Below are positions 6,169 to 20,876 of a stretch of DNA of 64,000 bases, piece by piece. The stretch's first letter is position 1; the number at the start of each line of letters is the position of its first letter. The position numbers and the translations under genes are program-made. The notes beneath the pieces were generated by a model. It saw only the letters and a list, made by a program, of their open reading frames with translations. It did no database searches and was not told the origin of the DNA. The stretch is from Pseudomonas sp. ISL-84 (GTDB taxonomy: Bacteria; Bacillota; Bacilli; Bacillales; Cytobacillaceae), in assembly GCA_018613035.1 (NCBI GenBank), contig JAGGRA010000039.1, positions 1 through 64,000 on the forward strand. Reading direction: 5' to 3'.

Positions 6169-6216
6169 TTGCTGTTCTGGAAATAGGTAAGTTATAATCA
6201 GTATAAAGTATACCAA
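6169..6216 (+). promoter_or_regulatory. promoter and GTATAC operator of the first GntR gene
   Basis: A -35 TTGCTG (6169-6174) and -10 TATAAT (6193-6198) are separated by 18 bp. An operator-like AAGTATACCAAG covers the expected transcription start (6205-6216, core GTATAC 6208-6213). This is the reverse complement form of the TTGGTATACAA motif found at many promoters up to 20.9 kb. The position suggests autorepression. Confidence 0.65.
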
Positions 6217-6233
6217 GAGAAAGAGGGAACTTG

Positions 6234-6908
6234 ATGGGGAATAATTGGACGGAGGATAATTTGATCTCTATTCGCGAGAGAGTTTATCTTCATATTAAAG
6301 ATTTAATATTAGATGGTGAATTTAAAGCGGGAGACCGGCTGGTGGAACGGGAACTTGCAGAAAGGCTGAACATCAGCAGGACGCCAATTCGCGAAGCGCT
6401 TTTTCGGCTGGAATCCCAGGGGTTTGTCAAAACCGTGCCAAGAAAAGGGGTTATCGTGGCAGATATTTCTGAAAAAGAAATTATAGAAGTATTCACGATC
6501 CTTTCTTCTCTTGAGGTTCTAGCTGCGAAACTAGCAGTGCAAAAGCTGGATGATGAGACGAAAAGCAAGTTCTCAGCAAGCATTAAAAAGGTTGAAAATT
6601 ACCTGAATCATCCTGATGAGGATGCTTCCGACCTTCATAGGGACCTGAATCATCTCCTATACAGCTCTGCAAAAAATGTAAAGCTTTACGAAATGCTAAG
6701 CGGACTATCCGATTATATCCGGGCTTTTGCAAAGATCGGCCACAAAAACCCAGGCAGGGCGAAACAGTCAATGGAAGAGCATTTAAAAATTATGGAAGCG
6801 ATTGTCAATAAAGAAATAGAAATGGCAGAATATTTAACAAAAATACATATTGAAAACTCTAAAAAAGCATATGTAGAAGCCGTTCAGCCGAGCGAAAAGA
6901 AAGACTGA
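6234..6908 (+). CDS. GntR family regulator with FCD domain (first paralog)
   Basis: A 224-residue cytoplasmic regulator of the FadR/FCD subfamily. Residues about 10-75 are the winged helix (AGDRLVERELAERLNISRTPIREALFRLE, split across the GntR signature) and residues about 85-215 the all-helical FCD ligand-sensing domain. The ATG at 6234 is preferred over the in-frame TTG at 6231 because GAGGG is correctly spaced only for the ATG. A close paralog lies at 19923, with near-identical DNA-binding helices. Such proteins usually repress catabolic genes until a small acid binds. The surrounding GTATAC motifs are the likely operators. The ligand is unknown. Confidence 0.9.
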   Translation: MGNNWTEDNLISIRERVYLHIKDLILDGEFKAGDRLVERELAERLNISRTPIREALFRLESQGFVKTVPRKGVIVADISEKEIIEVFTILSSLEVLAAKLAVQKLDDETKSKFSASIKKVENYLNHPDEDASDLHRDLNHLLYSSAKNVKLYEMLSGLSDYIRAFAKIGHKNPGRAKQSMEEHLKIMEAIVNKEIEMAEYLTKIHIENSKKAYVEAVQPSEKKD

Positions 6909-6940
6909 GAAAGAGCAGTATATGCTCTTTCTTATTTTTT
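6908..6940 (+). terminator. intrinsic terminator of the first GntR gene
   Basis: AGAAAGAGCA pairs with TGCTCTTTCT over a GTATA loop, then TATTTTTT. The stem begins in the stop codon. Confidence 0.88.
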
Positions 6941-7009
6941 AGGCCTCATGAACTACGATAACCCAATTATGTACTTGTACTGCATCGCTTTCATCGTTAA
7001 TCCACTTGC

Positions 7010-7420
7010 TTATTCCCATATCAGCTTTGATCGCTCGAAATCGTCGTTAATCCGTGCGATTAACTCCCAAATCAGGAGTGATCGCCTGAAATCGTCGTTA
7101 ATCCGTGCGATTAACTCCCAAACCAGGAGTGATCGCCTGAAATCGTCGTTAATCCGTGCGTTTAACTCCCAAAACAGGAGTGAATGCCCCGAAATCGTCG
7201 TTAATCCGTGCGATTAACTCCCAAATCAGGAGTGAATGCCCCGAAATCGTCGTTAATCCGTGCGGTTAACTCCCAAAACAGGAGTAAATGCCCGGAAATG
7301 GTCGTAAATCCGTTCAATTAACGACCAAAACAGGAGTGAGCGCCGTCAAATGGTAGTTAATCCACTCGATAACTACCATTACAGTAGTAATCAGACCGAA
7401 ATCGTCCCTCAATGAACTCC
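7010..7420. repeat. 51-52 bp direct tandem repeat array, about 7 copies
   Basis: The unit contains TCGTCGTTAATCCGTGCG, then TTAACTCCCAAA and CAGGAGTGA. Unit starts at 7041, 7092, 7143, 7195 and 7247 give periods of 51, 51, 52 and 52 bp; at least two further, more diverged units follow toward 7400. An open frame through the array (6948-7217) is only a consequence of the 51-bp periodicity; it has no ribosome-binding site. Function unknown. Confidence 0.88.
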
Positions 7421-7451
7421 AAAGCTGCTAAATTCAATAATACCCAGCTTT

Positions 7452-8267
7452 TTATACTCCAATTACCAAAGGTGAAGTTAAATTTTTTAATACTTTTGCC
7501 ACACTCATGGCTACAATCGGACTGGATTTAGGGTTTGTTTCATAAGGCACATTTGAAACGGATATCTCAGTTTCGCCAAAATAGCCTTTCGCTTTGATGG
7601 TATGAGTATTTGTTTGAATGGTCGGATCAGCAAAAACCTGTACTTTTGTGTTTTCAAAGCCGACACCGGCAAGACTTAAAGCCGCTGAAACATTTACGCT
7701 TTGCGGGAATAACTTCGAGGATTCACGTGCGTTGCCTTCATAAATGCAAACTGGCTCGGTTAAGGTTGCTAGATCTACTTTTTCCTCTGCAATTGTACCT
7801 GCCCAGCTCCTCGGGTGTTTCCTTGTTATAAGGGTTATCTCTTCGATCTCACCCAAAGCCCCGGCAGCGATTCGGTCCAGTCCGGCAATGGCTGCAGAAG
7901 GAATAAAGATTTGCTGATTGTACTTTTGGGCCGTTTCTTGAAGATTTTCAAAGAAATCCGTGTCTCCCAGCGCCCCAACAGAAAGGATAATAAGGTGGCT
8001 GCCGCTTGCCAGTGCTTTCTCCCCGTACATCTGTAAAGCTTGATGACCTGCTGCTTCAATGACAATATCTAAATCCCCATTAAAAAATTCTTCTTCATCT
8101 GCAGTAAAACCAAATGTTTGCTGAGATGCTTTCATAGAATCTGTTTCTCTTCTAACAAGTATTGTTTTTAATTCAATATTGCCGGCCTGGTTTCCCTCTA
8201 TTAACTCTGCAATGCCTTTTCCAAGCGTACCATAACCGATGATTCCAGCTTTTAACATATAGGACAC
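7452..8267 (-). CDS. aspartate dehydrogenase-like NAD(P)-dependent enzyme
   Basis: A 271-residue protein resembling L-aspartate dehydrogenase (NadX family). It has an N-terminal Rossmann motif (GIIGYGTLGKGIAELI, residues 7-22), a central nucleotide-fold segment DIVIEAAGHQALQMYGEKAL, and a C-terminal catalytic region with TRKHPRSWAGT and SVAKVLKNLTSP. Members oxidise or reductively form aspartate with NAD(P), and some act in catabolic clusters on other amino acids. The second methionine (MLKAG, residue 4) is an alternative start with the ribosome-binding site nearby. A GTATAC operator lies 68 bp upstream, tying it to the GntR regulon. It reads away from the permease gene. The physiological substrate is uncertain. 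Confidence 0.8.
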   Translation of the reverse strand: MSYMLKAGIIGYGTLGKGIAELIEGNQAGNIELKTILVRRETDSMKASQQTFGFTADEEEFFNGDLDIVIEAAGHQALQMYGEKALASGSHLIILSVGALGDTDFFENLQETAQKYNQQIFIPSAAIAGLDRIAAGALGEIEEITLITRKHPRSWAGTIAEEKVDLATLTEPVCIYEGNARESSKLFPQSVNVSAALSLAGVGFENTKVQVFADPTIQTNTHTIKAKGYFGETEISVSNVPYETNPKSSPIVAMSVAKVLKNLTSPLVIGV

Positions 8268-8331
8268 TCCTTATTTTATGTATTCTATTAATATGGTGAA
8301 AAGGGGAAGCAAACGCATTTTTTGGTATACG

Positions 8332-8343
8332 ATATACTATATA
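8332..8343 (-). promoter_or_regulatory. GTATAC operator upstream of aspartate dehydrogenase-like gene
   Basis: TTGGTATACGA (core 8335-8340), followed by the further palindromic stretch GATATACTATATAC. It sits 68 bp before the leftward gene start, where its promoter should be. Confidence 0.6.
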
Positions 8344-8459
8344 CAAATTTACCATTGATTCTATCCAAATACAGATTAAAATGCAAGGTATTTTCAGGAA
8401 TTTGCTAAAACATCTAAATTTTCAAAATTATTTGCACAATATACATTTTTAGTGTTATT

Positions 8460-8718
8460 ATAGTATACAAGTTATTAATAGTGGCAATGGGAGGTGATTA
8501 GCAGGTAGGGTCTTACCAGTTTCAAGAGTAGGTAAAAAGCAAGCTGAAATCATTATAATAGTTGTACAGTAGAATGAACCTTCATGAGCTACTCGAAAGA
8601 AGGCAACATGTTTTTTTAACCATAATTGGTATACAATCCACCAAATGCAGTATGCTATTTGGTAAATTTTTCTTATCCTCCTGGTCATATTTTCTAATTG
8701 TGAGAATGAGGTATACAT
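8460..8718. promoter_or_regulatory. three GTATAC operator candidates upstream of the first permease
   Basis: Cores lie at 8463-8468 (TAGTATACAAG), 8629-8634 (ATTGGTATACAATCC, a match to the full motif) and 8711-8716 (AGGTATACATAG). They occupy the 560-bp divergent gap (8268-8826) between the aspartate-dehydrogenase-like gene and the permease. Apart from these sites and AT-rich DNA, no gene is supported there. Confidence 0.55.
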
Positions 8719-8826
8719 AGACAGCTAGATCAAGCATAATCATAGCCTCTTTTCAACCAGAATTTTACAATCTATTTGCTTTTCTTAATAGGGAGTTACA
8801 TTTCATAAAAAAATGGAGGGGAATTA

Positions 8827-10272
8827 ATGGAATTAACATTTGCTCATTGGGTATATGCACTTGTAACTGTGTCAGTTATTGCCACGATGCTTTTTAGGAG
8901 AGGTGTTGTGCTGCCGGTTATTATGGGAACATTCTTAGTGGCAGTCATTTATAAAGGAAATTTGATATCAGGTTTCCAGGCCGTTTTTAACGCGAACCTC
9001 CTGGCAGCAAAAGAGCTTTTTAGCATATTCTTAATCATTTCCCTCATGATTGCCTTACTTAATTCTTTGAAAGACTTGGGAGCTGATAAGAAGCTTATTG
9101 GTCCGATTGAAAAAATCATGGTGAATGGGCATGTTTCGTACCTTGTTTTAATGGTGACAACATACGTCATTTCATTATTTTTCTGGCCAACTCCTGCGGT
9201 TCCGCTTATTTGCGCCTTGCTGGTTCCTGCAGCGGTGCGTGCTGGTCTTCCAGTGATGACTTCCGCGATGGTTATTGTTATCGCAGGCCAAGGTATGGCT
9301 CTTTCTTCAGATTATATTATGCAAGTAGCACCGATGCTAAGTGCCAAAGCAGCTGGCATTGATAAAGTGTTAGTTGCTGATAAAACGTTAGTTCTTTCAT
9401 TGATTACTGGAGTAAGTGCACTTGCCTATATCTATTTTGCTCATAGAAAATCAATCGTCAAGAATGATAACGCTGAATCGGGGCTTAATCCTGAAGATGC
9501 AGCTTTTTTCGGTGTAGCCAATGAACTTGCTGCAACAGCAGAAGAAAGTGCTGAAGCGATCCAGAGAAAAAATACATGGGGAAAGGTATTTGCTGTTTTA
9601 GTTCCTTTATCCATGCTTGCTGTTATGATTTATATGTTCCAATCAAAATTAACTGGAGCAACAGGCTTTGAAGGAACAGATGGAGCTGCATTTATCGGAG
9701 GGGTTGCAACACTTCTGTTGGTGCTCGCGACCATTGCATTTAACCGCATCCATGCTTTAGATAAGATTAGCGATCATTTGACAGAAGGTTTTGTGTTTGC
9801 GTTCAGGGCGATGGCACCCGTTATTCCGATTGCCGGATTCTTCTTTATGGGAAGTGCAGACTTCACAGGCACAATCCTATCATTAGATGAAAGCGCTGCC
9901 AAACCGGCATTTTTGTTTGATATGATCCAGGCAGGCCAATCCTATATTCCCGAAAATGCATTTATTGCAGGTTTTGGTATTTTAATTGTTGGACTTATCA
10001 CAGGATTGGACGGTTCAGGCTTTTCTGGCCTGCCATTAACCGGTGCATTATCTGGTGCATTGGCAAATGGAAGCGGCATCGATCCTTCCACATTGGCAGC
10101 GATTGGACAAATGGGTGCCATTTGGGGAGGAGGAACAATTGTTGCATGGTCATCCCTTGTGGCAGTAGCAGGCTTCCTGCAGCTTTCTCCGCTCGAATTG
10201 GCCAGGAAAAACTTTATCCCGGTTATCACCAGCCTATTCCTCGCAACTCTAATTGGAATACTAATCTGGTAA
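8827..10272 (+). CDS. putative IT-superfamily permease
   Basis: A 481-residue polytopic membrane protein with about twelve hydrophobic segments. It has two symmetrical halves, each with a loop rich in G, P and polar residues (SLFFWPTPAVPLICALLVPAA, split, and LDGSGFSGLPLTGALSGALA). That organisation is typical of ion-transporter superfamily carriers (GntP, CitMHS, DctM-like) for small organic anions. A hydrophilic loop lies near residues 210-255. The ATG follows TGGAGGGGAATTA. The gene is preceded by GTATAC operators and followed by a terminator, so it is probably a single-gene unit induced with the cluster. Substrate unknown; an organic acid is the likeliest guess. Confidence 0.7.
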   Translation: MELTFAHWVYALVTVSVIATMLFRRGVVLPVIMGTFLVAVIYKGNLISGFQAVFNANLLAAKELFSIFLIISLMIALLNSLKDLGADKKLIGPIEKIMVNGHVSYLVLMVTTYVISLFFWPTPAVPLICALLVPAAVRAGLPVMTSAMVIVIAGQGMALSSDYIMQVAPMLSAKAAGIDKVLVADKTLVLSLITGVSALAYIYFAHRKSIVKNDNAESGLNPEDAAFFGVANELAATAEESAEAIQRKNTWGKVFAVLVPLSMLAVMIYMFQSKLTGATGFEGTDGAAFIGGVATLLLVLATIAFNRIHALDKISDHLTEGFVFAFRAMAPVIPIAGFFFMGSADFTGTILSLDESAAKPAFLFDMIQAGQSYIPENAFIAGFGILIVGLITGLDGSGFSGLPLTGALSGALANGSGIDPSTLAAIGQMGAIWGGGTIVAWSSLVAVAGFLQLSPLELARKNFIPVITSLFLATLIGILIW

Positions 10273-10300
10273 AAGTATAATCAGCATGCTTGAAAAATAG

Positions 10301-10352
10301 AGGGCTATCCTGCAAAGTTAGAAATAATCTAACTGAAGGAAAGCCCTTTTTA
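10301..10352 (+). terminator. intrinsic terminator after the first permease
   Basis: AGGGCT and AGCCCT enclose a second stem AGTTAG/CTAACT, followed by TTTTTAT. Confidence 0.75.
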
Positions 10353-10387
10353 TAGTTAAAAGTGTTTAGCAGATAAGGAGTGATCTA

Positions 10388-11083
10388 GTGAAGAAACTCA
10401 AAGTTGCCTTGGCGGGCATTGGAAAATTGGGTGCAGCTATGATGGCGCATTGGAATGAAGAAAACATCCAAATAGGTATCTATCATCCAAGCAGGACGAA
10501 AGCCGAACAATTTATTCGGCGTTTTCCAAACGGTTATTTATTAAATGAACAGGATCTGAGAGAGGTGGATATCCTCATATTGGCTTTGCCGGCCGGCAAG
10601 GTGATTCCCTTTATGGAAAACATAGCAGCTGAAGCACTTTCTTCCTCGGTAATCTTTATCAATATGGCTACAGCTCTGCCTACAAAAGTAGTCTGCAAGA
10701 GATTCCCGTCTTACAATGTGTATGGCATAAAATATATGGGCCATTCCAGAGATTTATTGGAGCATGGAAATGGATTGTTTATTACCGAGGAGCATTTGCC
10801 AGAACAAGTAATGGAACTATACAAACCATTGGGAAAAATCAATAAAGATGGCGAAGACAGATTAGTTGAAATTAACAAACTGGCTACCTATTATGCAGTA
10901 AAAACGGCAGTGGAAATCGAAAAAGACTTCACCAATAAAGGCTACCCGTCCGCTTATATAAAAAGGGCACTCACATCACTCGCTCCTGAAGTCATCCGCT
11001 CCTATAGCGAAGGCAATTTGGGTCATTTTGCACAGGAGATTGTGAGAGAAATAAAAGAAAGCAGTGAAAAAGATGCTGATTGA
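10388..11083 (+). CDS. NAD(P)-binding dehydrogenase-like protein
   Basis: A 231-residue protein with an N-terminal Rossmann fold (VALAGIGKLGAAMMAHWNEENIQIG, split) and an arginine after the second strand (HPSRTK) that suggests NADP preference. Then comes ILALPAGKVIPFMENIA, as in pyrroline-5-carboxylate-reductase/6-phosphogluconate-dehydrogenase-type enzymes. The C-terminal part is helical and short, so it is smaller than a typical beta-hydroxyacid dehydrogenase. Start is GTG, supported by AAGGAGTG six bases upstream. No GTATAC site was seen directly before it. The reaction is not identifiable. Confidence 0.7.
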   Translation: MKKLKVALAGIGKLGAAMMAHWNEENIQIGIYHPSRTKAEQFIRRFPNGYLLNEQDLREVDILILALPAGKVIPFMENIAAEALSSSVIFINMATALPTKVVCKRFPSYNVYGIKYMGHSRDLLEHGNGLFITEEHLPEQVMELYKPLGKINKDGEDRLVEINKLATYYAVKTAVEIEKDFTNKGYPSAYIKRALTSLAPEVIRSYSEGNLGHFAQEIVREIKESSEKDAD

Positions 11084-11104
11084 CTACATCAGCATCTTTT
11101 TTTG
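11067..11104 (+). terminator. intrinsic terminator overlapping the end of the dehydrogenase-like gene
   Basis: AAAAAGATGCTGA pairs with TCAGCATCTTTTT across a nine-base loop, with a run of seven T. The left arm encodes the last residues of the gene at 10388. Confidence 0.88.
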
Positions 11105-11138
11105 CCTTTGAGCAATCATATTCAGCCCGGTTTTCGGA

Positions 11139-11214
11139 TATCAACAAAAACCAGGCATATCAACGAAATCACGGATATATCAATGAAAAGCAAGCATATA
11201 TCAACGAAAATTCA
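11139..11214. repeat. 19-21 bp direct repeat array, four copies
   Basis: TATCAAC(or T)GAAA-type units start at 11139, 11158, 11178 and 11199, with non-identical linkers. A similar array with another core occurs at 26221. Confidence 0.7.
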
Positions 11215-11230
11215 TTTTTATCGGCCAAAT

Positions 11231-11264
11231 CGATAAAAAATCCCCCTGCACCTGCAGCGGGGAC
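11231..11264 (-). terminator. intrinsic terminator of the leftward second permease
   Basis: Read on the minus strand, TCCCCGCTGCA and TGCAGGGGGA form the stem, followed by TTTTTT. It lies just past the stop at 11276. Confidence 0.75.
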
Positions 11265-11275
11265 CCGGAAATCTA

Positions 11276-12694
11276 TTAACTTAACAGGCTTTCTAATAAG
11301 AATAAATACAGCATAACACAAGCAACATATATAGCTGCAAATGGCATATTCCAGTTGGACACTTTATAGGAATTGACTTTAATAATGTTTGACATAAGGC
11401 CCAGCGTAGCATTATAAGGACCTACCAAAAAGGAGGAAACAGCTCCTGACAGCATCGCGACTGTCAAAATGTGCGGAGAGATTCCGATTGCATCCGGGTT
11501 AACACCTTCAATCATTAAAGCGAGTGATACTGCAGGGTGAAGGCCTAAAAAGGCCAGTCCCAAAGGAATGAGTGGCAGGATAATCAGAAAAATTTCCACT
11601 CCTGCAACGTCAATAAAAGCTGCAATCCAGCCATACAATTTTTCATTGAAATTGGAATAATTAATAGCTGAAATAAAAAATCCGGTAGATAGAAAGATGA
11701 AGAATTGATCCTTCATGCTCATAGAAAAAGTTTGAAGGTGTTCAATCAGCTGATTGCCAAATTCTTTTCCTTTTTTTAGGAAGAGGGCCCAGCTAAACGC
11801 AAATGGAATGACAATCAATGAGACAAGAATTAAGAACGGCAATGAGAATTGAGTTTCTGCAAGGGAAACAATAAGATTAAAGATAGCAATTGCAACCAGA
11901 ATTTGAAAAACCCGGCCAGGCCGCCCCGCAAAGCCTCCTTCCAGAGCTGCTGCCGTTTCATGTACGGATTTTTCAGTGGGTGGGATGGCCATCGTTTGGG
12001 ATTTGCGGGAACCAATAAACCAATCCAATCCTAATCCCAACATGCTTAACGGAATGACATAGGGAAGGATGGATCCCCAGCTAACTCCAGTCATTGTAAT
12101 AACAATCCCAACAATGGGTGTAACAGGAGCCCATAATAAAGGCATGGCAAAACCTCTCGAGATCGCCCTGCTCATAAACCGCTCCTTATTCCGGACCGGA
12201 AAGCTTCCCAGCGCTGGACGTATGGAATAGTATGTCATGGGAAGCGTTGCAAGGTTCATAAAAATGCTAAAAAAGTAAGAGATACCGGAAGTCATCATAT
12301 ATAAATGGCCGGAAGTCTTTACTTTTTTCTGAATAATCGCCTGTATCCCCTCGCCATATCTCCCAATCCTAATGGGAATTCCCAAGATAGGTATTAAAGT
12401 AAACATGGTAAGCAAGTCAAGCATCGGTCCAAAAGCAAGGATATAATTTTGCCACTGTGAGCCGCTTGTCCAAAGCAGCAAAACCCCGAGCCCAAGGAAG
12501 ATGCCCCCCAAGACTTGGACGAATCTCTTTGCAATCCTGAATGTCAAAACAACAATAATGAAACATAAAATGGAGAGGAGGGGACCGATCTTCCATTCAG
12601 GCATTAGAGTGGACAGCAAATATAGGCTAATGACAGATAAAAATAAAACTCTAAGCATATCAGACACCCTCGCAATCATTAAAGAATCCTTCAT
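11276..12694 (-). CDS. putative 12-TM permease of the gene cluster
   Basis: A 472-residue hydrophobic membrane protein with about twelve segments. It includes a polar-interrupted central helix region (GISYFFSIFMNLATLPMTYYS, split) and a mirrored C-terminal region (LTVAMLSGAVSSFLVGPYNATLGLM, split). The P/N-rich re-entrant segments in both halves suggest an ion-transporter superfamily carrier such as an organic-anion permease, distinct from the one at 8827. A GTATAC operator sits 72 bp upstream of the start and a terminator follows. It is divergent from the 28-codon micro-gene, and both are flanked by the same motif. Substrate unknown. Confidence 0.7.
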   Translation of the reverse strand: MKDSLMIARVSDMLRVLFLSVISLYLLSTLMPEWKIGPLLSILCFIIVVLTFRIAKRFVQVLGGIFLGLGVLLLWTSGSQWQNYILAFGPMLDLLTMFTLIPILGIPIRIGRYGEGIQAIIQKKVKTSGHLYMMTSGISYFFSIFMNLATLPMTYYSIRPALGSFPVRNKERFMSRAISRGFAMPLLWAPVTPIVGIVITMTGVSWGSILPYVIPLSMLGLGLDWFIGSRKSQTMAIPPTEKSVHETAAALEGGFAGRPGRVFQILVAIAIFNLIVSLAETQFSLPFLILVSLIVIPFAFSWALFLKKGKEFGNQLIEHLQTFSMSMKDQFFIFLSTGFFISAINYSNFNEKLYGWIAAFIDVAGVEIFLIILPLIPLGLAFLGLHPAVSLALMIEGVNPDAIGISPHILTVAMLSGAVSSFLVGPYNATLGLMSNIIKVNSYKVSNWNMPFAAIYVACVMLYLFLLESLLS

Positions 12695-12762
12695 CTTATA
12701 ATATCGTGAATGAAATATCTTTTGTTAAGGGAAAAGAAATTAAAAACCCTTTTTAAATTAAG

Positions 12763-12776
12763 GTTGTATACCAAAA
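12763..12776 (-). promoter_or_regulatory. GTATAC operator upstream of second permease
   Basis: TTGTATACCAAAAT (core 12766-12771) lies 72 bp before the leftward permease start. It is the reverse complement of the consensus TTGGTATACAA. Confidence 0.65.
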
Positions 12777-12833
12777 TGTTTATTTTAAAGGTTTAATTCA
12801 CCAATTTGCCATAAATTAAATAAAATTATGGTA

Positions 12834-12879
12834 TTTGGTATACAATTTAGTTGTAAACCAGTAAAACTCATTATATAAT
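12834..12879 (+). promoter_or_regulatory. promoter with adjoining GTATAC operator for the micro-gene
   Basis: A -35 TTGTAA (12851-12856) and -10 TATAAT (12874-12879) are 17 bp apart. A full operator match, TTGGTATACAATTT (core 12838-12843), abuts the -35 box. Transcription would start near 12886, about 30 nt before the ATG. Confidence 0.7.
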
Positions 12880-12916
12880 AATGATAACAGGAAAGAAAAA
12901 AAAGGAGGAAATCCCA

Positions 12917-13003
12917 ATGTTCAACTTTCTATTTGGTTCTAAATATGCAGTTGAAAAATCCGAAAGAAAATTAGCGCGATTGAGAAAGACATTAAAATTC
13001 TAA
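12917..13003 (+). CDS. 28-residue micro-protein with its own promoter and terminator
   Basis: A very short ORF starting MFNFLFGSKYAVEK and ending KTLKF. The ATG follows an ideal AAAGGAGG ribosome-binding site at seven bases. The first seven residues are hydrophobic/aromatic; the rest is a strongly basic, probably amphipathic helix (K, R, E repeats). A consensus promoter with a GTATAC operator lies upstream and an intrinsic terminator starts five bases after the stop, so it is a complete transcription unit of about 150 nt. It could be a small membrane-associated peptide or a dual-function RNA. No family recognised. Confidence 0.7.
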   Translation: MFNFLFGSKYAVEKSERKLARLRKTLKF

Positions 13004-13007
13004 CCAG

Positions 13008-13035
13008 GCCGCCATCCTTGGCGGTTTTTTATTTT
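13008..13035 (+). terminator. intrinsic terminator of the micro-gene
   Basis: GCCGCC and GGCGGT form the stem with an ATCCTT loop, followed by TTTTTATTTT. Confidence 0.85.
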
Positions 13036-13120
13036 ACAGAGACCTTTGAAAGTTCATAGTTAGTATATAAAGCGATCCACTACAAGATATTCCGCTGAAC
13101 CATTCTCTTCCTGAACAACA

Positions 13121-13151
13121 AACCCGGAAGAAGAGAAGCTTCCTCCGGGTT
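13121..13151 (-). terminator. probable terminator of the 111-aa gene
   Basis: AACCCGGA...TCCGGGTT with an inner AGAAG/CTTC extension makes a long hairpin immediately downstream of the leftward gene. The minus-strand tail (TTTGTTGTTC) is only partly T-rich. Confidence 0.6.
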
Positions 13152-13175
13152 CAAAATCTTCTTATTAAAAGAGGT

Positions 13176-13511
13176 TTACACAGCTACTTCATCAGACTTA
13201 ACAAGCTTGGAGTGGATAGAGTCCTCACTGTTGCCTGAAGCTTTTACAATCTCATCTAATTCCTCGCGGGCTGCTTCAAGGGTTCCAAATCGCTCAAAGA
13301 ATTTCACACCGATATGGTTAACATATTCTTTTCCTTCATATTCTTCAAACAACTGGATTTTCATATTCTCATCTAAAACCTCTGCGATCGTGTATTTTGC
13401 CTTTAATTTATCGAAGAAATAAAAATGATAGGTTTCAACCGGCTTTAAGCCCTCATTTTCTAGAATCGTTTGGAAGGTATCTTTATTTGTTAAAACAATA
13501 TATTTTCCCAT
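13176..13511 (-). CDS. uncharacterised 111-aa cytoplasmic protein of the regulon
   Basis: A soluble protein starting MGKYIVLTNKD. The start at 13511 is supported by AAAGGAGTG; the longer upstream extension has no such site and crosses the operator. It has short beta-strand-like segments (KYIVLTNK, VETYHFYFFD, KIQLFEEYEG), then a C-terminal helix (TLEAAREELDEIVKASG), suggesting a small alpha/beta domain. It has no cysteines, signal peptide or membrane segment. A GTATAC operator 97 bp upstream places it in the same regulon as the ferredoxin and diiron-protein genes. It could be an accessory or carrier component of the oxidation system, but no family is recognised. Confidence 0.75.
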   Translation of the reverse strand: MGKYIVLTNKDTFQTILENEGLKPVETYHFYFFDKLKAKYTIAEVLDENMKIQLFEEYEGKEYVNHIGVKFFERFGTLEAAREELDEIVKASGNSEDSIHSKLVKSDEVAV

Positions 13512-13603
13512 ATTTACCACTCCTTTAATATTTTTAGAATGCGCAGGTGAAAAAATGTCTCTCCTAATATGTATGCTTCTCGCATATCTCCTCCCGTCTG
13601 GAA

Positions 13604-13617
13604 TATTGTATACCATA
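13604..13617 (-). promoter_or_regulatory. GTATAC operator upstream of the 111-aa gene
   Basis: ATTGTATACCATAT (core 13608-13613), 97 bp before the start of the leftward gene. Confidence 0.65.
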
Positions 13618-13733
13618 TATCTTAAATGTATTTTATAACAAGGAGAAGAAATGTTCAATGATATATTCTAAATTTTTTAATAATTCCGTTAAAGTGATAA
13701 AAAATATATAATGATAGCCGGTTAAAATTAGGT

Positions 13734-13846
13734 GTTGATTTCCGATCAGACACTAGCTTTCCGAGGGCTACTGAGAGCTCCTCGGCGTTCTAAGCCTGCG
13801 GGGTCTCCCTTGGTTCGCTTGTCCCGTACCTTCCCCTCAAGTCAAC
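13734..13846. repeat. degenerate MITE-like palindromic repeat
   Basis: Begins GTTGATTTCCG and ends AAGTCAAC, with the usual internal GCGGGGTCTCCCTTGG segment. It is diverged compared with other copies and lacks recognisable outer inverted repeats. Confidence 0.75.
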
Positions 13847-13888
13847 ACGATTCTAAATCAGTAGATAACTTATCACAGATAATAAATT

Positions 13889-14130
13889 AGGCTGTTTTCT
13901 AAAAGATTGTTGTTTTTGAATAGATTTATGAATAGAACAATAAATAATGTTGGTTGATTGGAGCGTAAGGTGCGAGACTCCTGCGGGAGGAGTGGGACAG
14001 GTGAGACCCCACAGGCGCAGCGCGCTGAGGAGGCTCACCGCCTACCCCGCGTTCGCTGAGCAGCCTGGAGCGGAAATCAACCTCTCTACAATATTTGTTT
14101 AAAAAGCAACAAAGTTTGCGAAAACAGCCT
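13889..14130. repeat. MITE-like element, AGGCTGTTTTC class
   Basis: Outer inverted repeats AGGCTGTTTTC (13889-13899) and GAAAACAGCCT (14120-14130) enclose an inner palindrome from GTTGATT (13953) to AATCAAC (ending 14081), containing GACTCCTGCGGGAGGAG and GTGAGACCCCAC. It carries no protein gene. It lies between the 111-aa gene and the first ferredoxin gene. Confidence 0.85.
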
Positions 14131-14148
14131 AAATTAAAAAAATCCTAT

Positions 14149-14177
14149 TTGCCAATCTTCCAGAAAGGTTGTATACT
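14149..14177 (+). promoter_or_regulatory. promoter of ferredoxin gene with operator over the -10 box
   Basis: A -35 TTGCCA (14149-14154), 17-bp spacer, and -10 TATACT (14172-14177). The -10 box is part of the motif TTGTATACTTT (core 14171-14176), so a bound GntR protein would block RNA polymerase. This is the clearest sign that the motif is a repressor site. Confidence 0.7.
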
Positions 14178-14224
14178 TTTTGAAAGTATCTAAATTTTTC
14201 GAATAAACTGAAAGGGGTAATGAT

Positions 14225-14557
14225 ATGCCAAAGGTTACTCTCCATGTTGATGGGAAGAAAGTGGAACAGCAAGTAAAAGATAATGCAAATTTAGTAGTAT
14301 TAGCGGGGATCCGCCAATTCCCAGAGTTAAAGTATGGCTGCGGAATGGGAAGATGTACAAAGTGTACTTGCGTTGTTATTAGCGGGGGAGAAGATTTAGC
14401 ACCGCCTAATTGGAAAGAGGAAAAAATGCTAGGTGACAAGGTGAATGAGGGCTACAGATTAACTTGCCAACTAACAATTCAGAAGGATATTGAAATATCT
14501 CAGGAAAATATCTCTGTAACTCCGCCAAAGAAGACAACAGCAGCTATTACGAAATAG
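14225..14557 (+). CDS. plant-type [2Fe-2S] ferredoxin (first)
   Basis: A 110-residue electron carrier. The cluster-binding loop is YGCGMGRCTKC (C-x4-C-x2-C), with the fourth cysteine in RLTCQL near residue 80, the usual spacing for plant-type/adrenodoxin-like ferredoxins. A short lysine-rich tail follows. The ATG has AAAGGGGTAATG upstream. Its promoter overlaps a GTATAC operator and the creatininase-family gene follows after 60 bp. It probably passes electrons to an oxygenase of the cluster, the heme-oxygenase-like protein at 15610 being the best candidate; that pairing is inference. No ferredoxin reductase gene is nearby. Confidence 0.92.
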   Translation: MPKVTLHVDGKKVEQQVKDNANLVVLAGIRQFPELKYGCGMGRCTKCTCVVISGGEDLAPPNWKEEKMLGDKVNEGYRLTCQLTIQKDIEISQENISVTPPKKTTAAITK

Positions 14558-14578
14558 TTTTTTATTTTTTAAATTAAA

Positions 14579-14592
14579 TGGTATACAAAATA
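14579..14592 (+). promoter_or_regulatory. GTATAC operator upstream of the creatininase-family gene
   Basis: ATGGTATACAAAAT (core 14581-14586), 32 bp before the gene start and directly after the ferredoxin gene. Confidence 0.62.
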
Positions 14593-14617
14593 CCTTAGAG
14601 TAGCGGGTGATTATTAA

Positions 14618-15388
14618 ATGAATTGTTATGATCTAACGAAAATGACTTGGAAAGAAGTAGAAGAGTCATTACAAACAGTTGAAATTGCTATTATTCCAGT
14701 CGGTGCACATGAACAGCATGGGCCGCATATGGCTGAAAGCTGTGATGCAGTGCTTGCGGAGAAGATGGCAATAAAGCTGGGAGAAAGAATGTTTCCATAT
14801 GCCATTGTGACTCCTGTTGTGAATATGGGGGTATCCGAGCATCACATGCATTTTCCTGGAACAATCTCACTGCAGCCAGCAACCTTGATTGCTGTTTTGA
14901 AAGATATGGTTTCGTCATTGAAGCAGCATGGTATTAAGAAGTTTCTATTTCTAAATTCACATGGAGGCAACCAATCTACTTTGAATCTTGCCGCCATGAC
15001 GATTACAAAAGAATTGGATGTTGAAGTCTACTATGCAAAAACAACCGCATCAGCCAAGGAGTCAATTGGGAAATTTGTAAAATCGCCTCTTTTTGGTCAC
15101 AGCTGTGAGCGTGAAGTTTCAGAAGCTTTGTACCTGGCACCTGAACTGGTCAGAACCGAACTATTAGAAAAAGGCGATATTCGAGAGGATGGAAGATGGA
15201 AAAGGCTGCGGCCTGGCAAAGCGGTCCAGGGATTCTATTTCTATGAGGAAATGACCCAAAACGGATGTATTGGAGATGGCAGACAGGGCTCTAGGGAAAT
15301 TGGTAAGCAAATTGTAGATGAAGCCTTAAAGAATCTTACTGAAGAACTTTCCGAGCTGCTTGATCTCAAAGCTGAACTGCTATATTAA
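14618..15388 (+). CDS. creatininase family amidohydrolase
   Basis: A 256-residue member of the creatininase family (creatinine amidohydrolase, FAPy deformylase, MftE), which are divalent-metal enzymes that hydrolyse cyclic or formyl amides or trim peptides. Likely metal ligands are E32 and H34 (PVGAHEQHGPH), D43 and H115 (NSHGGNQ), plus a glutamate in HSCEREVSEA. The SHGGN motif is the MftE/deformylase-like version rather than the HYEN of true creatininase, so creatinine is unlikely to be the substrate. It is expressed from its own operator-bearing promoter region just after the ferredoxin gene, and probably opens an amide in the pathway. Confidence 0.88.
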   Translation: MNCYDLTKMTWKEVEESLQTVEIAIIPVGAHEQHGPHMAESCDAVLAEKMAIKLGERMFPYAIVTPVVNMGVSEHHMHFPGTISLQPATLIAVLKDMVSSLKQHGIKKFLFLNSHGGNQSTLNLAAMTITKELDVEVYYAKTTASAKESIGKFVKSPLFGHSCEREVSEALYLAPELVRTELLEKGDIREDGRWKRLRPGKAVQGFYFYEEMTQNGCIGDGRQGSREIGKQIVDEALKNLTEELSELLDLKAELLY

Positions 15389-15442
15389 TTCTAGTTCTCA
15401 ACAGAAACTTTAATTAATCTTTAAAAAATTCTAAAAATTGTG

Positions 15443-15488
15443 TTTACAAGTGAAAAAGAATAGGTTATTATTCAATTAAGGTATACCA
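15443..15488 (+). promoter_or_regulatory. promoter and operator of the diiron-protein gene
   Basis: A -35 TTTACA (15443-15448), 17-bp spacer, -10 TATTAT (15466-15471), then the operator AAGGTATACCAAAG (core 15481-15486) over the expected start of transcription. Confidence 0.6.
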
Positions 15489-15511
15489 AAGACCAAAAAA
15501 ACAAGAAGAAT

Positions 15512-15545
15512 AGAGGTTGTAAAATAGCAACCTATTATTTTTTAA
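15512..15545 (+). terminator. leader terminator upstream of the diiron-protein gene
   Basis: AGGTTG and CAACCT form a six-pair stem with an eight-base loop, followed by ATTATTTTTT. It lies between the promoter and the start codon, so it would stop leader transcripts unless antiterminated or bypassed. Confidence 0.55.
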
Positions 15546-15549
15546 AAGT

Positions 15550-15563
15550 TTTGGTATACAAAA
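15550..15563 (+). promoter_or_regulatory. second GTATAC operator of the diiron-protein gene
   Basis: TTTGGTATACAAAA (core 15554-15559), after the leader terminator and 51 bp before the start codon. It is the best match to the consensus in the window. Confidence 0.65.
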
Positions 15564-15609
15564 TATCAAATGCCAATAGGCTACATAAAAATCGAGGAGG
15601 AGTTTATAC

Positions 15610-16341
15610 ATGCCAGAATTATTATCTAAAGATGAATTTCGCAAAGAACTAGAGGAAGCGATTAAAGGAAATCATAGTCAGAAAGCTCCATTTACAGTAG
15701 CTTGGGCTGAAGGAAAGCTTGAAAGAAAGCACTTTGCAAGATGGGCTGAAAACCATTACCACTATGTAGGACCTTTCGCAGACTACTTAGCGTATATCTA
15801 CCATAACACTCCATCAGATCCAAAATTCGAAGCAGCAAAAGACTTCACACTTCAAAATATGTATGAAGAAGAAATTGCTGCTGACCGTCATACAGACCTG
15901 CTGATTCGCTTTGCTGAAGCTTGCGGAACAACTCGTGAACGCGTCATCAATCCTGAAAACATGGCTCCAACAACATTAGGTTTGCAAAGCTGGTGCTACG
16001 CAGTGGCTGCTCGAGAAAACTTTGTTGTTGCAACAGCAGCTCTAGTTGTTGGCCTTGAGTCTCAGGTACCTGATATCTATCGTAAACAAACCCCTGCTCT
16101 TCGTGCACAATATGGATTTACAGATGAAGAAATTGAATTCTTCGACCTTCACATCGTATCCGATGAAATCCATGGCGAACGCGGCTACAAAATTGTACTA
16201 GACCACGCAGACACGCCAGAACTGCAGCAGCGCTGCCTGGAAGTAGTACGTACAGGTGCCAAAATGCGCCGCATGTACATGGATGGCCTATGGAGAGAGT
16301 ACCTGGAACAGGATTTGGGATCTTTAGTAGAAGCTAAATAA
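15610..16341 (+). CDS. heme-oxygenase-like (PqqC/TenA-type) diiron oxidase
   Basis: A 243-residue all-helical protein of the PqqC/TenA/CADD superfamily. Many members are heme-oxygenase-like diiron oxidases, which use O2 to cleave or hydroxylate unactivated substrates. Likely metal-binding residues are E87/E88 and H94 in MYEEEIAADRH, E150 in VVGLESQ, and H181, D185 and H188 in DLHIVSDEIHGE. PQQ biosynthesis partners are absent, so PQQ synthesis is unlikely. Two operators and a leader terminator precede it, a TCGAGGAGGAG ribosome-binding site drives it, and ferredoxin genes are neighbours. Strong regulation and good codon use suggest it is the key inducible enzyme. The substrate is unknown. Confidence 0.8.
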   Translation: MPELLSKDEFRKELEEAIKGNHSQKAPFTVAWAEGKLERKHFARWAENHYHYVGPFADYLAYIYHNTPSDPKFEAAKDFTLQNMYEEEIAADRHTDLLIRFAEACGTTRERVINPENMAPTTLGLQSWCYAVAARENFVVATAALVVGLESQVPDIYRKQTPALRAQYGFTDEEIEFFDLHIVSDEIHGERGYKIVLDHADTPELQQRCLEVVRTGAKMRRMYMDGLWREYLEQDLGSLVEAK

Positions 16342-16402
16342 ATATGAAATAATTATTAATAGTATTGGCTGTATGAAAGCCAACTAAATGATTTAGCACC
16401 CT

Positions 16403-16530
16403 GTTGATTGAAGTGGAAGGAGTAAGACTCCTGCGGGAGGAGCGGGACAGGTGAGACCCCACAGACGCGAAGCGGCGAGGAGGCTCACCGCCCGCCCCGC
16501 GGAAAGCGAGCTCCTGAAACGGAAATCAAC
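16403..16530. repeat. MITE-like palindromic repeat (inner element)
   Basis: Runs from GTTGATT (16403) to AATCAAC (ending 16530), with CTCCTGCGGGAGGAGCGGG and GTGAGACCCCAC inside. No outer inverted repeats are recognisable. It occupies part of the 360-bp gap before the aldehyde dehydrogenase gene. Confidence 0.85.
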
Positions 16531-16596
16531 AGGCCAAATTACCGGAGCTAAATAACCAAAAAAGACTCATTCAAGTTGAAGAATTTTCAATTCCAG

Positions 16597-16645
16597 GCCG
16601 TCACACTAAATCTTGTCAATCGAGGTCTAAGTGGCGGCTATTTTT
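16597..16645 (+). terminator. probable terminator after the diiron-protein gene
   Basis: GCCGTCAC and GTGGCGGC (one G-T pair) form the stem around a long loop, followed by TATTTTTAT. It lies beyond the MITE-like repeat and separates this unit from the aldehyde dehydrogenase operon. Confidence 0.55.
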
Positions 16646-16702
16646 ATAACTATGAATTTGGCGCAGTAAAGGGAGAAATAAACAGAAAGTAAGGTGATCG
16701 TT

Positions 16703-18166
16703 TTGATTACAACAAAAGTAGAAACATTCCATAACTACATTAACGGAGAATGGCAGGAATCAGCCAGCCAAAAAAAGTTTTATAGCGTAAATCCTGCAAA
16801 CACTGAAGATGTAGTTGGTGTTTTTCAGGCATCAAATGAAACCGATGTAAAACAGGCAATCGAAGCTGCAAACGAAGCTTTTCCAGAATGGGCAAAAACA
16901 GCCCCATCCAAGCGGGCTGCCATTTTAAACAAAGCTGCTTCCATTCTGGAAGAAAATTCGGCCAAATATGCGGAAGAACTGTCAAGAGAAGAAGGAAAGC
17001 ATGTGAATGATGCTAAAAATGAAGTGTTAAGATCAGCACAGACGCTTCGCTATTATGCAGTTGAAGGCCAAAGCTTCACAGGCGAAACCTTCCCGAATGA
17101 TGACCCGAATATGAAAGTATCCACGGAAAGAGAGCCGCTTGGGGTAGTGAGTGTCATTACACCTTGGAACTTTCCTATTTCCATTGCTGCCAGAAAAATT
17201 GCTCCAGCTTTAATTACAGGCAACACAGTTGTCTTCAAACCTTCTTCAGATACTCCACTAATCGCTGTTCGTCTTGTTGAAGCATTGCAGCAGGCTGGAC
17301 TGCCAAAAGGTGTCCTGAACTTTGTCACTGGCAGGGCATCTGATGTTGGGGATCCATTAGTCACTCATCCTGCTGTTAAAGCTGTCACTTTTACCGGTTC
17401 AACCGCTGCTGGAGAAGATATCCACCGCAAGAGCTCTTTCACTACCCGTACCCAAATGGAGCTTGGCGGGAAAAATCCGCTCGTTGTCATGGATGATGCG
17501 GATCTTGACCTTGCTGCGACGTTAACCGTAAATGGAGGCTTCTCCTTAACAGGGCAAGCGTGTACGGGAACAAGCAGAGTTATAGTATTGAAAGAAGTAA
17601 AAGAAGCCTTCGTTCAAAAATTGATCGAAAAAACAAGCGCCCTTAAAATCGGCAACGGTTTTGAAGAGGGAGTTAAAATCGGCCCGCTTGCAAATGAAAA
17701 GCAATTAAAAAATGTTTTGAAGTATATTGAATTCGGCAAAGAAGATGGAGCTGAACTTGTATATGGCGGTGAACATTTGACCAATGCTGCTTACGAGAAA
17801 GGATTCTTTGTATCCCCGGCCATTTTCACCAATGTAAAACCAAATCACCGCATTGCCAAAGAAGAAATATTTGGTCCAGTGATTGCCGTTATCGAAGTAG
17901 ATACATATGAAGAAGCCATCGCGATCGCGAATGATGTTAACTATGGATTGTCTGCTTCGATTGTGACCAATAATTTAAAAACGGCAAACAGGTTCACAAA
18001 AGACATTCAGGCAGGGACGGTAAAAGTGAACCGGACAACGACCGGCAACTTGATTAATGCTCCGTTCGGCGGCTTGAAGCAATCCAGCACGGCAACCTTC
18101 CGTGAATCCGGCAGAGTTGGCCTTGAATTCTTCACGCAAGTCAAAACTGTTTATATCGGCTACTAA
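16703..18166 (+). CDS. aldehyde dehydrogenase family protein
   Basis: A 487-residue NAD(P)-dependent aldehyde dehydrogenase. It has the proton-relay region PWNFPISIAARKIAPAL, the general-base glutamate in QMELGGKNP and the catalytic cysteine in GQACTGTSRVI, all in place. The start is taken as TTG at 16703 because AAGGTG is correctly spaced for it; a GTG at 16694 lies inside that signal. It begins an operon with the GlcG-like gene (21 bp gap), followed by the chromate-transporter-type pair and the second GntR. It likely oxidises an aldehyde made by the upstream enzymes. No GTATAC site was found directly upstream. Confidence 0.93.
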   Translation: MITTKVETFHNYINGEWQESASQKKFYSVNPANTEDVVGVFQASNETDVKQAIEAANEAFPEWAKTAPSKRAAILNKAASILEENSAKYAEELSREEGKHVNDAKNEVLRSAQTLRYYAVEGQSFTGETFPNDDPNMKVSTEREPLGVVSVITPWNFPISIAARKIAPALITGNTVVFKPSSDTPLIAVRLVEALQQAGLPKGVLNFVTGRASDVGDPLVTHPAVKAVTFTGSTAAGEDIHRKSSFTTRTQMELGGKNPLVVMDDADLDLAATLTVNGGFSLTGQACTGTSRVIVLKEVKEAFVQKLIEKTSALKIGNGFEEGVKIGPLANEKQLKNVLKYIEFGKEDGAELVYGGEHLTNAAYEKGFFVSPAIFTNVKPNHRIAKEEIFGPVIAVIEVDTYEEAIAIANDVNYGLSASIVTNNLKTANRFTKDIQAGTVKVNRTTTGNLINAPFGGLKQSSTATFRESGRVGLEFFTQVKTVYIGY

Positions 18167-18187
18167 TTAGATAGAAGGAGAATGAAC

Positions 18188-18667
18188 ATGAAAACAGCCC
18201 TTAAATTGGAACTAGAAGAAGCAAAATTAATGATTGAAGCAGCGAAGGAAAAATCAGCTGAAATTAATGTCCTTGAAACGATTGCAATTGTAGATGATGG
18301 GGGAAGCCTGCTTGCTCTTGAAAGGATGAACGGAGCTAGAATCACAGGCCCTGAAATTGCCATTGCTAAAGCCTATACAGCTTCAGGCCATAAACGTTCG
18401 ACTCATTTATTTAATAAAGAGCCAAACGGCCCGGCACTGCCAGGAAATGAAGCATTCGGCATCCAGCATATGCTTAACGGGAAGTTTGCTGTGTTTGTTG
18501 GCGGTTTCCCAATCGTGGTAAACGGAGAAGTAGTTGGAGGAATCGGAATCAGCGGCGGGAATGGCGAGCAAGATACGGCTGTTGGAACCGCTGCTTTACA
18601 AGCACTTCAATCTTATCTGGAAAAAGACGGATATGAAGTGGTAACAGAAGCAGACATAAAAAGATAA
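18188..18667 (+). CDS. GlcG/HbpS-family protein
   Basis: A 159-residue protein of the GlcG (haem-binding HbpS, DUF336) family. Diagnostic pieces are AIVDDGGSLLALERMNGA, PEIAIAKAYTA and GGFPIVVNGEVVGGIGISGG. Family members accompany glycolate, diol and aromatic-compound catabolism genes; some bind haem or cobalamin or protect enzymes from oxidation, and a single function is not established. The ATG at 18188 is chosen because AGAAGGAG is seven bases upstream; the in-frame ATG at 18182 is too close. It is co-transcribed with the aldehyde dehydrogenase gene. Confidence 0.88.
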   Translation: MKTALKLELEEAKLMIEAAKEKSAEINVLETIAIVDDGGSLLALERMNGARITGPEIAIAKAYTASGHKRSTHLFNKEPNGPALPGNEAFGIQHMLNGKFAVFVGGFPIVVNGEVVGGIGISGGNGEQDTAVGTAALQALQSYLEKDGYEVVTEADIKR

Positions 18668-18673
18668 TAGAAA

Positions 18674-18714
18674 AGGGCCTCATTCGTTATGGCAATAGCG
18701 GAATGGGGTCCTTA
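18674..18714 (+). terminator. imperfect hairpin after the GlcG-like gene
   Basis: AAGGGCCTCATTCG pairs imperfectly with CGGAATGGGGTCCTT, with a short T-poor tail. It could be a weak terminator or mRNA-processing hairpin between the enzyme pair and the transporter pair. Confidence 0.4.
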
Positions 18715-18759
18715 TTCAGTCATAGGAACTTATGAAAGAGGATAGAGAGGGAGGATCGC

Positions 18760-19883: not shown

Positions 19884-19922
19884 TCTCTATCGGACTATAA
19901 AAAAATAATAGCAGGTGGAAAA

Positions 19923-20603
19923 ATGGAAAAAACATGGGAGGAAAATCAGCTAATATCAATACGCGAACATGCTTATCTGTACTTAAAAAAGTTAATTTTA
20001 GAAGGGGAGTACCAGGCTGGCGACCGTCTAGTTGAGAGAGAACTGGCTGCCAAGCTGAATATAAGCCGCACCCCAATTCGTGAGGCTTTATTCCGGCTTG
20101 AATCACAAGGCTTTGTAAAAACCGTCCCAAGAAAAGGAGTTGTTATTTCCAATATTTCAGAAGATGAAGTATTGGAGGTATTTACGATTCTCTCTTCCCT
20201 GGAAGTCCTTGCTGTAAAATTGGCAGCCCAAAGAATGGATAGGGAAACACAAAAAGAATTGGACCGGAAAATTCAAGAACTGATGGAACTTAATGAACAG
20301 GCTGAAGAAAACTTTAATTCTGAGCATATCCAAATGAATAGGCTAATTAATAAAGCATCCAAAAGCCCTAAATTATACGAAATTCTTTCCGGCCTTATCG
20401 ATTTTATTCATATGGCTGCCAATATGGGTTATGAAACACCAGGCAGAAGGAAGGATTCACTAAAAGAACATATCGATATCATGAAGGCACTGCGTGACAA
20501 AGATACTGAAATAGCTGAGTACCTGATGAGGATTCATATTGAGAATTCAAAGAAAGCCTATATAGCCTATATGGAAGGCATTAAAAAGAAGTTTAATAAC
20601 TAG
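19923..20603 (+). CDS. GntR family regulator with FCD domain (second paralog)
   Basis: A 226-residue FadR/FCD-type regulator. The winged helix has GDRLVERELAAKLNISRTP and IREALFRLESQGFVKTVPRK, almost the same as in the protein at 6234, so the two should recognise the same or closely similar DNA. The FCD domain is more diverged, which suggests different ligands or cross-regulation. The ATG follows GCAGGTGG. It sits 39 bp after the CHR pair with no clear terminator between, so probably co-transcribed. A degenerate MITE-like repeat follows it. Confidence 0.9.
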   Translation: MEKTWEENQLISIREHAYLYLKKLILEGEYQAGDRLVERELAAKLNISRTPIREALFRLESQGFVKTVPRKGVVISNISEDEVLEVFTILSSLEVLAVKLAAQRMDRETQKELDRKIQELMELNEQAEENFNSEHIQMNRLINKASKSPKLYEILSGLIDFIHMAANMGYETPGRRKDSLKEHIDIMKALRDKDTEIAEYLMRIHIENSKKAYIAYMEGIKKKFNN

Positions 20604-20629
20604 ACTTAAGCAGGCGGCTATCCTGGAGC

Positions 20630-20843: not shown

Positions 20844-20876
20844 AAAGAAAAACTTTAATTTTTTAAAAGTTTTATA

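Follow-up and report, generated by a model that had tools for sequence, protein, structure and literature searches.

We find, with near certainty on the strength of sequence, that the 28-codon open reading frame at positions 12917-13003 of the window (by which we mean the whole stretch of 64,000 nucleotides analysed here) is a real and separately transcribed micro-gene, belonging to a GntR-type regulon. The gene shares its operator sequence, GTATAC, with the gene of a haem-oxygenase-like iron oxidase (HDO) in the same cluster, and the two are arranged as mirror images: at the peptide gene the sites precede the -35 box, and at HDO, the one cluster enzyme included in the comparison, they follow the -10 box. 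Our preferred explanation, held tentatively and at a little short of even chances, is that the peptide is a small trans-acting regulatory or adaptor protein of the HDO pathway, expressed from the GTATAC (GntR/FCD) regulon on a different, perhaps opposite, schedule. Its basis, all of it read from sequence, consists of conservation, coding selection, co-occurrence with HDO, relocation of the gene, operator phasing, mirrored geometry and lineage-specific Fur boxes.

Scanning the window sequence around the open reading frame reveals a complete set of promoter, operator, Shine-Dalgarno sequence and terminator (Table 1). The promoter, which matches the consensus at 10 of 12 positions, the Shine-Dalgarno sequence and the terminator are all located where a first-pass annotation of this DNA had placed them; the distance of five bases that it gave between stop codon and terminator is that to the GCCGCC core, which begins at 13008. 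The same annotation had the operator abutting the -35 box. This must be corrected, as seven bases lie between the two, and the gap is itself conserved (see below). The window contains 22 copies of GTATAC, as compared with a mean of 5.5 in shuffled sequence, and 22 copies were reached in none of 100 shuffles. Thus, the motif is more frequent than chance would allow. From the place of the regulator in the cluster, we infer that a GntR protein binds it. The predicted product of the gene is a strongly basic small protein of 28 residues, which would be translated from its own mRNA of about 145-147 nt.

Table 1. Coordinates of the micro-gene, its control elements and the neighbouring genes discussed in the text (window positions).
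Feature	Position	Strand	Remarks
GntR/FCD regulator	6231..6908	+	candidate operator-binding protein
Divergent permease	11276..12694	-	predicted ion-transporter (DASS/TRAP/AbgT-like) superfamily fold
Distal GntR-type operator core GTATAC	12766..12771	.	72 bp upstream of proximal core
Proximal operator core (TTTGGTATACAA; GTATAC)	12838..12843	.	7 bp upstream of -35 box
Promoter TTGTAA-17-TATAAT	12851..12879	+	TTGTAA 12851-12856, 17-bp spacer, TATAAT 12874-12879
Shine-Dalgarno sequence AAAGGAGG	12901..12908	+	sequence scan
28-codon gene MFNFLFGSKYAVEKSERKLARLRKTLKF	12917..13003	+	ATG 12917, TAA 13001-13003; frame, length and start conserved; pN/pS 0.28
Intrinsic terminator	13006..13027	+	hairpin stem with T tail
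2Fe-2S ferredoxin	14225..14557	+	cluster gene
Creatininase-family amidohydrolase	14618..15388	+	cluster gene
HDO operator	15481..15486	.	just downstream of HDO promoter, repressor-type position; geometry from 51 named loci
Second HDO operator	15554..15559	.	73 bp further downstream
Haem-oxygenase-like iron oxidase (HDO)	15610..16341	+	Haem_oxygenas_2 (Pfam), CADD/PqqC-like; co-occurring marker enzyme
Second GntR-type regulator	19923..20603	+	similar to the gene at 6231; 56-59% cross-matches in L050, L060

A translated search of 101 related genomes detects the peptide at E < 1e-5 in 23 of them, namely its own genome, 19 others of the same genus and three that are more distant. Six other genomes of the 101 gave chance-level matches only; these account, together with a second place in the peptide's own genome, for seven weak matches at E 0.5 to 2.1 that we leave uncounted. 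Within the genus the peptide is present in 20 of 36 genomes, where a second place in G023 (E 0.0096) is not counted as a homologue. Of 490 HDO relatives from named genomes, we took the best 80 as a named set, with 10-kb flanks where contigs allow. Among the 29,597 small open reading frames of these 80 loci, a profile built partly from species that are also in the set identifies the peptide at 37 bits or more in 51 loci and nothing above 9.2 bits in the other 29, which include one contig edge (L165).

The 51 named orthologues are 28 residues long in 48 cases and 27 in three, and they start with ATG in 50 cases and GTG in one. Both ends of the peptide are conserved, and the net charge ranges from +3 to +8 over 41 distinct peptides. 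The entropy at codon positions 1, 2 and 3 is 0.65, 0.42 and 1.31, respectively (46 sequences; L166 and L167, which cannot be aligned column for column, are left out), and pN/pS equals 0.28 over the 256 pairs with pS < 0.65, which are non-independent. That is, the peptide frame is under purifying selection. Conservation of the frame had been named beforehand as one of the points on which the gene should stand or fall, and the outcome favours a gene.

In our sample of the order, the peptide occurs in 13 of 135 genera. Among the named loci it is carried, to judge by their titles, by Cytobacillus, Neobacillus, Priestia abyssalis, Rossellomorea, Alkalihalobacillus, Siminovitchia fordii and Schinkia, as well as by Calidifontibacillus, Fictibacillus and Pseudalkalibacillus and by a number of species classed under Bacillus, among others. 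The clusters of four loci filed as Sporosarcina globispora, Chryseobacterium sp. ISL-80 and Paenibacillus sp. (L115, L118, L119, L124) are close to those of Cytobacillus and Neobacillus, and these genomes are likely misnamed. A search across the class recovers the peptide in 4 of 398 genomes. Besides the genome of the window itself, these are one from the same order and two from a different order (G589 and G608).

Known families offer no counterpart. The window peptide has no match in Pfam (E up to 1), NCBIfam (E up to 0.01) or PHROGs (E up to 1), and a profile search of the PDB gives no convincing sequence match (best E 2.5). Two Pfam families, each matched by one of the 14 rows of our first profile, A1 (best E 0.016 and 0.07), were taken as chance. 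We also considered the small proteins FbpA (PF13076) and FbpB (PF13040), and rejected this identity: the window peptide, the 14 rows of A1 and two distant copies all lack an Fbp match in Pfam, where the scan of the two copies included an FbpB protein as the positive control, and the peptide profile scores at most 1.1 bits against 12 FbpA proteins. A tblastn search of an annotated plasmid collection found nothing, and among the papers searched none contains the strings MFNFLFGSK or FLFGSK and nothing pertinent emerged on comparable small proteins. By these sequence comparisons the peptide represents a new small-protein family, of a kind (tiny conserved proteins with a transcription unit of their own) that is already known.

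The gene lies in a catabolic cluster at 6208-21300, which comprises HDO, two ferredoxin-type genes, a creatininase-family hydrolase, an aldehyde dehydrogenase and an aspartate-dehydrogenase-like protein, together with two permeases, two GntR regulators, and GlcG-like and ChrA-like genes (named by eye). A literature search for an HDO/creatininase/ferredoxin cluster found no description. HDO has CADD/PqqC relatives among solved structures, and its sequence relatives at 71-74% identity are found in Cupriavidus, Paraburkholderia and Nonomuraea. Another member of the cluster, a 110-residue protein at 13176-13508 (-), has a GTATAC site of its own and is 51-99% identical in those bacilli where it is found; it matches no NCBIfam model and no Pfam family above cut-off. 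The window also contains GC-rich intergenic look-alikes at 13940-14110, 16340-16555 and about 56800-57000 (junk open reading frames GSHLSHSSRRSLAPYAPINQ and variants), probably a dispersed repeat.

The presence of the peptide follows that of HDO closely. In the genus, the 20 of 36 genomes that have HDO are precisely those that have the peptide. Among 397 genomes of the order, scored on the best 20 candidates per genome so that a few absences may be misses, HDO is found in 30 (E 1e-60 or better) and the peptide in 19 (E < 1e-5); all of the latter are HDO-positive, the comparison being 19 of 30 against 0 of 367 HDO-negative genomes (Fisher P about 4e-25, ignoring relatedness). The first profile, A1, was too narrow for this search: it missed diverged copies in G076, G234, G260 and G362, which were recovered by inspection and a later profile, A4. 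Seven genomes at E 0.0027 to 0.0094 in the A1 search were not counted as homologues, and we likewise left out the HDO-negative genome G119, whose weak match (E 0.0077) falls within a frame of 258 codons.

Of the 30 HDO-positive genomes, 11 have no peptide match among their best 20 candidates. Seven of these 11 belong to a single Gottfriedia-type genus (g47), and the proximal operator is kept in all five g47 genomes whose spacer was read, with relics of the open reading frame apparent in two. Such apparent relics behind intact operators can be read in the Gottfriedia-type loci L095, near 13708 (+), and L104, near 4422 (-), as MLSLVFGF and MLNFDFGNYKI, each followed by a stop. Where Gottfriedia-type and Niallia-like species retain the cluster, the gene is absent or decayed, and thus it is dispensable there. 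In eight loci of Cupriavidus and Paraburkholderia, furthermore, no peptide is seen within 10 kb of HDO. Given these loci and the peptide-less HDO genomes, HDO seems not to need the peptide.

The divergent permease at 11276 has no Pfam family above its cut-off; its predicted fold (mean pLDDT 84) resembles VcINDY-, TRAP- and AbgT-like chains, with TM scores of 0.44-0.61 when normalised by query length. The gene adjoins a permease of this type, divergently, in 46 of the 51 named orthologues. In the other five (B. taeanensis, three Fictibacillus and Pseudalkalibacillus) it lies at the cluster's opposite end, where it converges on the second ferredoxin gene. In G589 and G608 the peptide gene and HDO are even on different contigs, and no cluster gene was matched within the 20-kb region around the peptide gene; GGTATACC is retained upstream. 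The first-pass annotation had named a regulator of the divergent permease as one possibility. Adjacency in 46 of 51 orthologues could indeed point to a role specific to the permease; the specific tie is weakened by relocation in five of 51 loci and by the two copies on contigs other than that of HDO. For the same reasons we set aside a role confined to the permease, which loci L001-L023, all with the divergent permease, had suggested. Since the relocated and unlinked copies keep the operator, the peptide is better described as a member of the regulon, probably acting in trans, and not simply as the partner of the divergent permease.

A broader version of the transporter idea makes the peptide a small regulator or subunit, associated with the membrane, of either cluster permease, the divergent one or the other at 8827; we judge this rival unlikely. 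The Bacillus sp. FJAT-14578 locus (L146, of 20.7 kb only) has neither an 11276-type permease nor the peptide and keeps the remaining cluster, which leaves a transporter role among the alternatives. The permease at 8827, moreover, is of a closer type (at least 64% identity) wherever it is seen with the peptide in the named loci, and is 62-63% identical in G589 and G608; in five bacilli whose version is 38-40% identical (L168, L173, L175-L177), the locus contains no peptide. Conversely, homologues of the 11276 permease (52-53%) occur in G102, G105, G375 and G415, in which the order search detected no peptide among the best 20 candidates per genome, and in Gottfriedia-type clusters both the 11276 permease and the closer-type 8827 persist without it. 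The aromatic N-terminus of the peptide is followed by a basic amphipathic segment with a moment of 0.48, as compared with 0.26 in shuffled peptides, about 9% of which equal it; residues 1-8, however, are too few to span a membrane. From its composition, in particular the positive net charge given above, membrane association is plausible. SpoVM, an amphipathic membrane-binding small protein, is likewise hydrophobic and basic and of about 26-28 residues; the likeness is one of description, and the setting of SpoVM is sporulation where that of the peptide is catabolic.

The arrangement of operator and promoter provides the evidence on how the peptide may be controlled. In all 51 orthologues GTATAC lies 64-93 nt before the peptide start, and a second GTATAC lies above the proximal one, at 61-63 bp in 19 loci and 72-73 bp in 32; these spacing classes, shared like sequence conservation by descent within clades, correspond to roughly six or seven helical turns. 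The proximal operator is separated from the best -35 box by 7-8 bp in 43 of 51 loci and by 17 bp, one turn more, in three; the remaining five gaps are 5, 6, 21, 22 and 25 bp, and that of the unlinked copies in G589 and G608 is 16 bp (counted by eye). The composite pattern GTATAC-N7/8-TTGnnn-N16/18-TATAAT, in which the TATAAT part alone may contain a single mismatch, occurs at 43 of the 51 peptide operators versus 3 of the remaining 1259 GTATAC strand-sites of these 51 loci. A second promoter search passed its threshold in 40 of these loci and in none of the other 11. Within the 40, the distance from the start of the peptide operator down to the -10 box is 35-37 bp in 32 and 46 bp in three, and the best-scoring promoter lies elsewhere in five.

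HDO presents the reverse picture. Its promoter is mostly TTTACA-17-TAnnAT in the 51 named loci, and the first operator follows 15-21 bp past the start of the -10 box in 48 of them (L166 is an exception, and none was called in L159 and L163). Two operators are found at HDO in 45 of 51 loci, and these pairs are helically phased as well; phasing therefore reflects the regulator and does not alone prove activation. The first-pass view that the micro-gene is regulated like the enzymes consequently holds for the operator sequence, which is shared, and not for the geometry, which is opposite to that of HDO.

Because the geometry is mirrored, the peptide is probably not simply co-regulated with HDO. 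Most likely it is controlled differently, and possibly in the opposite sense, so that a GntR regulator would activate it when HDO is repressed; an upstream operator is also compatible with repression. A similar division of sites exists for FadR, a single GntR-type regulator of Escherichia coli, whose sites generally overlap the -10/+1 region of the repressed, catabolic fad genes and which activates fabA and fabB, as passages of PMC9329746 state; passages of PMC3462791 likewise give FadR as a precedent for dual repression and activation. The present case differs from the FadR regulon in its operator sequence and pathway, and in that the putatively activated gene encodes a micro-protein, where those activated by FadR encode biosynthetic enzymes.

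Alternatively, the peptide could be co-induced with the enzymes by release from simple GntR repression at the -45 site, for example as a small partner of HDO or of its ferredoxins. Strict co-occurrence with HDO and the shared operator would suit such a partner, and so would the conservation of both peptide ends, as for a specific protein interface. We nevertheless think it distinctly improbable, in view of the opposed geometry, of the HDO-positive order genomes without the peptide and of the Cupriavidus and Paraburkholderia loci described above. A further point against it comes from Fur boxes, which at three of the 51 peptide promoters are present at the peptide gene and absent at other genes of the same loci.

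The Fur box has the consensus TGATAATNATTATCA. Allowing one mismatch, the three named peptide promoters with a box compare with 0.04 expected from the background rate; allowing two, there are five of 51 versus 0.20 expected, though four of these five are Fictibacillus or Pseudalkalibacillus, and the number of independent events is accordingly small. Three more Fur-boxed peptide promoters lie outside the named 51 (L049, L058 and L059, the last two from the same genus). At up to two mismatches the other 46 named promoters have no Fur box, and in the window none is found near the gene at up to three. Elsewhere in the 80 loci there are eight one-mismatch sites, seven in Gottfriedia-type loci and one in L167. 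The Gottfriedia-type box is situated close to the cluster's permease end, well apart from the place of the peptide, in seven of eight loci (L142, at position 4395, L144, L145, L147, L149, L152 and L179, but not L143). G589 also encodes a protein of 84 residues that contains two peptide-like segments (L196, 1330-1581, -); its gene is preceded by a Fur-box-like sequence and a double GTATAC, and the genes nearby include siderophore-permease-like and cation-efflux-like ones (named by eye).

The occurrence of Fur boxes in several lineages suggests an added iron signal, which would be delivered by binding of Fur. Together with the iron-gene setting in G589, these boxes make the Fbp proteins of Bacillus subtilis the nearest functional comparison. 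Like the peptide, FbpA, FbpB and FbpC are very small, basic and separately transcribed, and they have a tie to an iron-demanding pathway; in a few lineages the peptide promoter, too, carries a putative Fur box. FbpB represses lutABC with FsrA, according to passages in PMC7430163 and PMC12871923. The peptide differs in having no sequence relation to FbpA or FbpB, the two with which it was compared, and in its main control, a GTATAC/GntR operator, most lineages including that of the window being without a Fur box.

Two further readings, both unlikely, place the function in the RNA or in the act of translation. In the first, which the first-pass annotation had raised, the transcript would be a dual-function or regulatory RNA and the open reading frame incidental or secondary. 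A short monocistronic transcript with its own terminator would fit this, and a terminator-like hairpin does occur within 110 nt of the stop codon in 47 of 51 orthologues versus 130 of 510 shuffles. However, third codon positions are free to vary where residues are kept, the predicted 147-nt transcript is no more stably folded than shuffled sequence (z -0.77), a scan of the window against Rfam at gathering cut-offs gave no match, and the 3' hairpins are unrelated in sequence between genera. The suggestion thus gains no support, and we give it very little probability. SR1P of B. subtilis resembles the peptide, by description, in being a tiny product of a short transcript: passages of PMC7430163 describe it as a 39-residue protein from the dual-function RNA SR1 that acts in trans. 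Unlike SR1, the present transcript offers no evidence of a base-pairing function. The second reading, a leader peptide or attenuator of a downstream gene, has in its favour the shortness of the frame and the terminator directly after it, but it makes little sense and has next to no probability, as the next gene of the window is convergent (13176, -) and the downstream neighbours vary among the lineages inspected.

We return, then, to the trans-acting regulatory or adaptor protein, for which we propose the following mechanism. At the peptide promoter the GntR regulator would make contact from upstream of the -35 box, while at the HDO promoter it would sit downstream of the -10 box and repress. 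The peptide would thereby be activated while HDO is repressed, much as FadR represses fad and activates fab genes. Once made, it may tune the iron-costly pathway of HDO and two ferredoxins by binding a protein, an RNA or the membrane, and in several lineages Fur would add an iron signal. Expression of the peptide, binding by GntR and Fur, activation by GntR, and the tuning of the pathway through protein, RNA or membrane are the steps that we infer. A more specific and quite doubtful form of this proposal is that of a guard for the off state, in which GntR, bound downstream of their promoter, silences the HDO and ferredoxin enzymes and at the same time, from phased positions above the -35 box, switches on a peptide that shuts down or clears residual activity of the pathway, with Fur serving in several lineages as the trigger under iron scarcity. 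If so, the gene would represent an iron-sparing device inside a single catabolic regulon.

The micro-protein family, spread over the sampled genera of the order given above, has a signature of operator pair, phased promoter and HDO partner by which it can be found and tested. It also offers a clean test case for what small proteins do, with a single gene in a single regulon that nature has in places lost or moved. If the mirrored promoter logic is real, then enzymes and a small protein would follow different or opposite schedules under a single GntR-type regulator, and the lineages with Fur boxes would connect this logic to the economy of iron.
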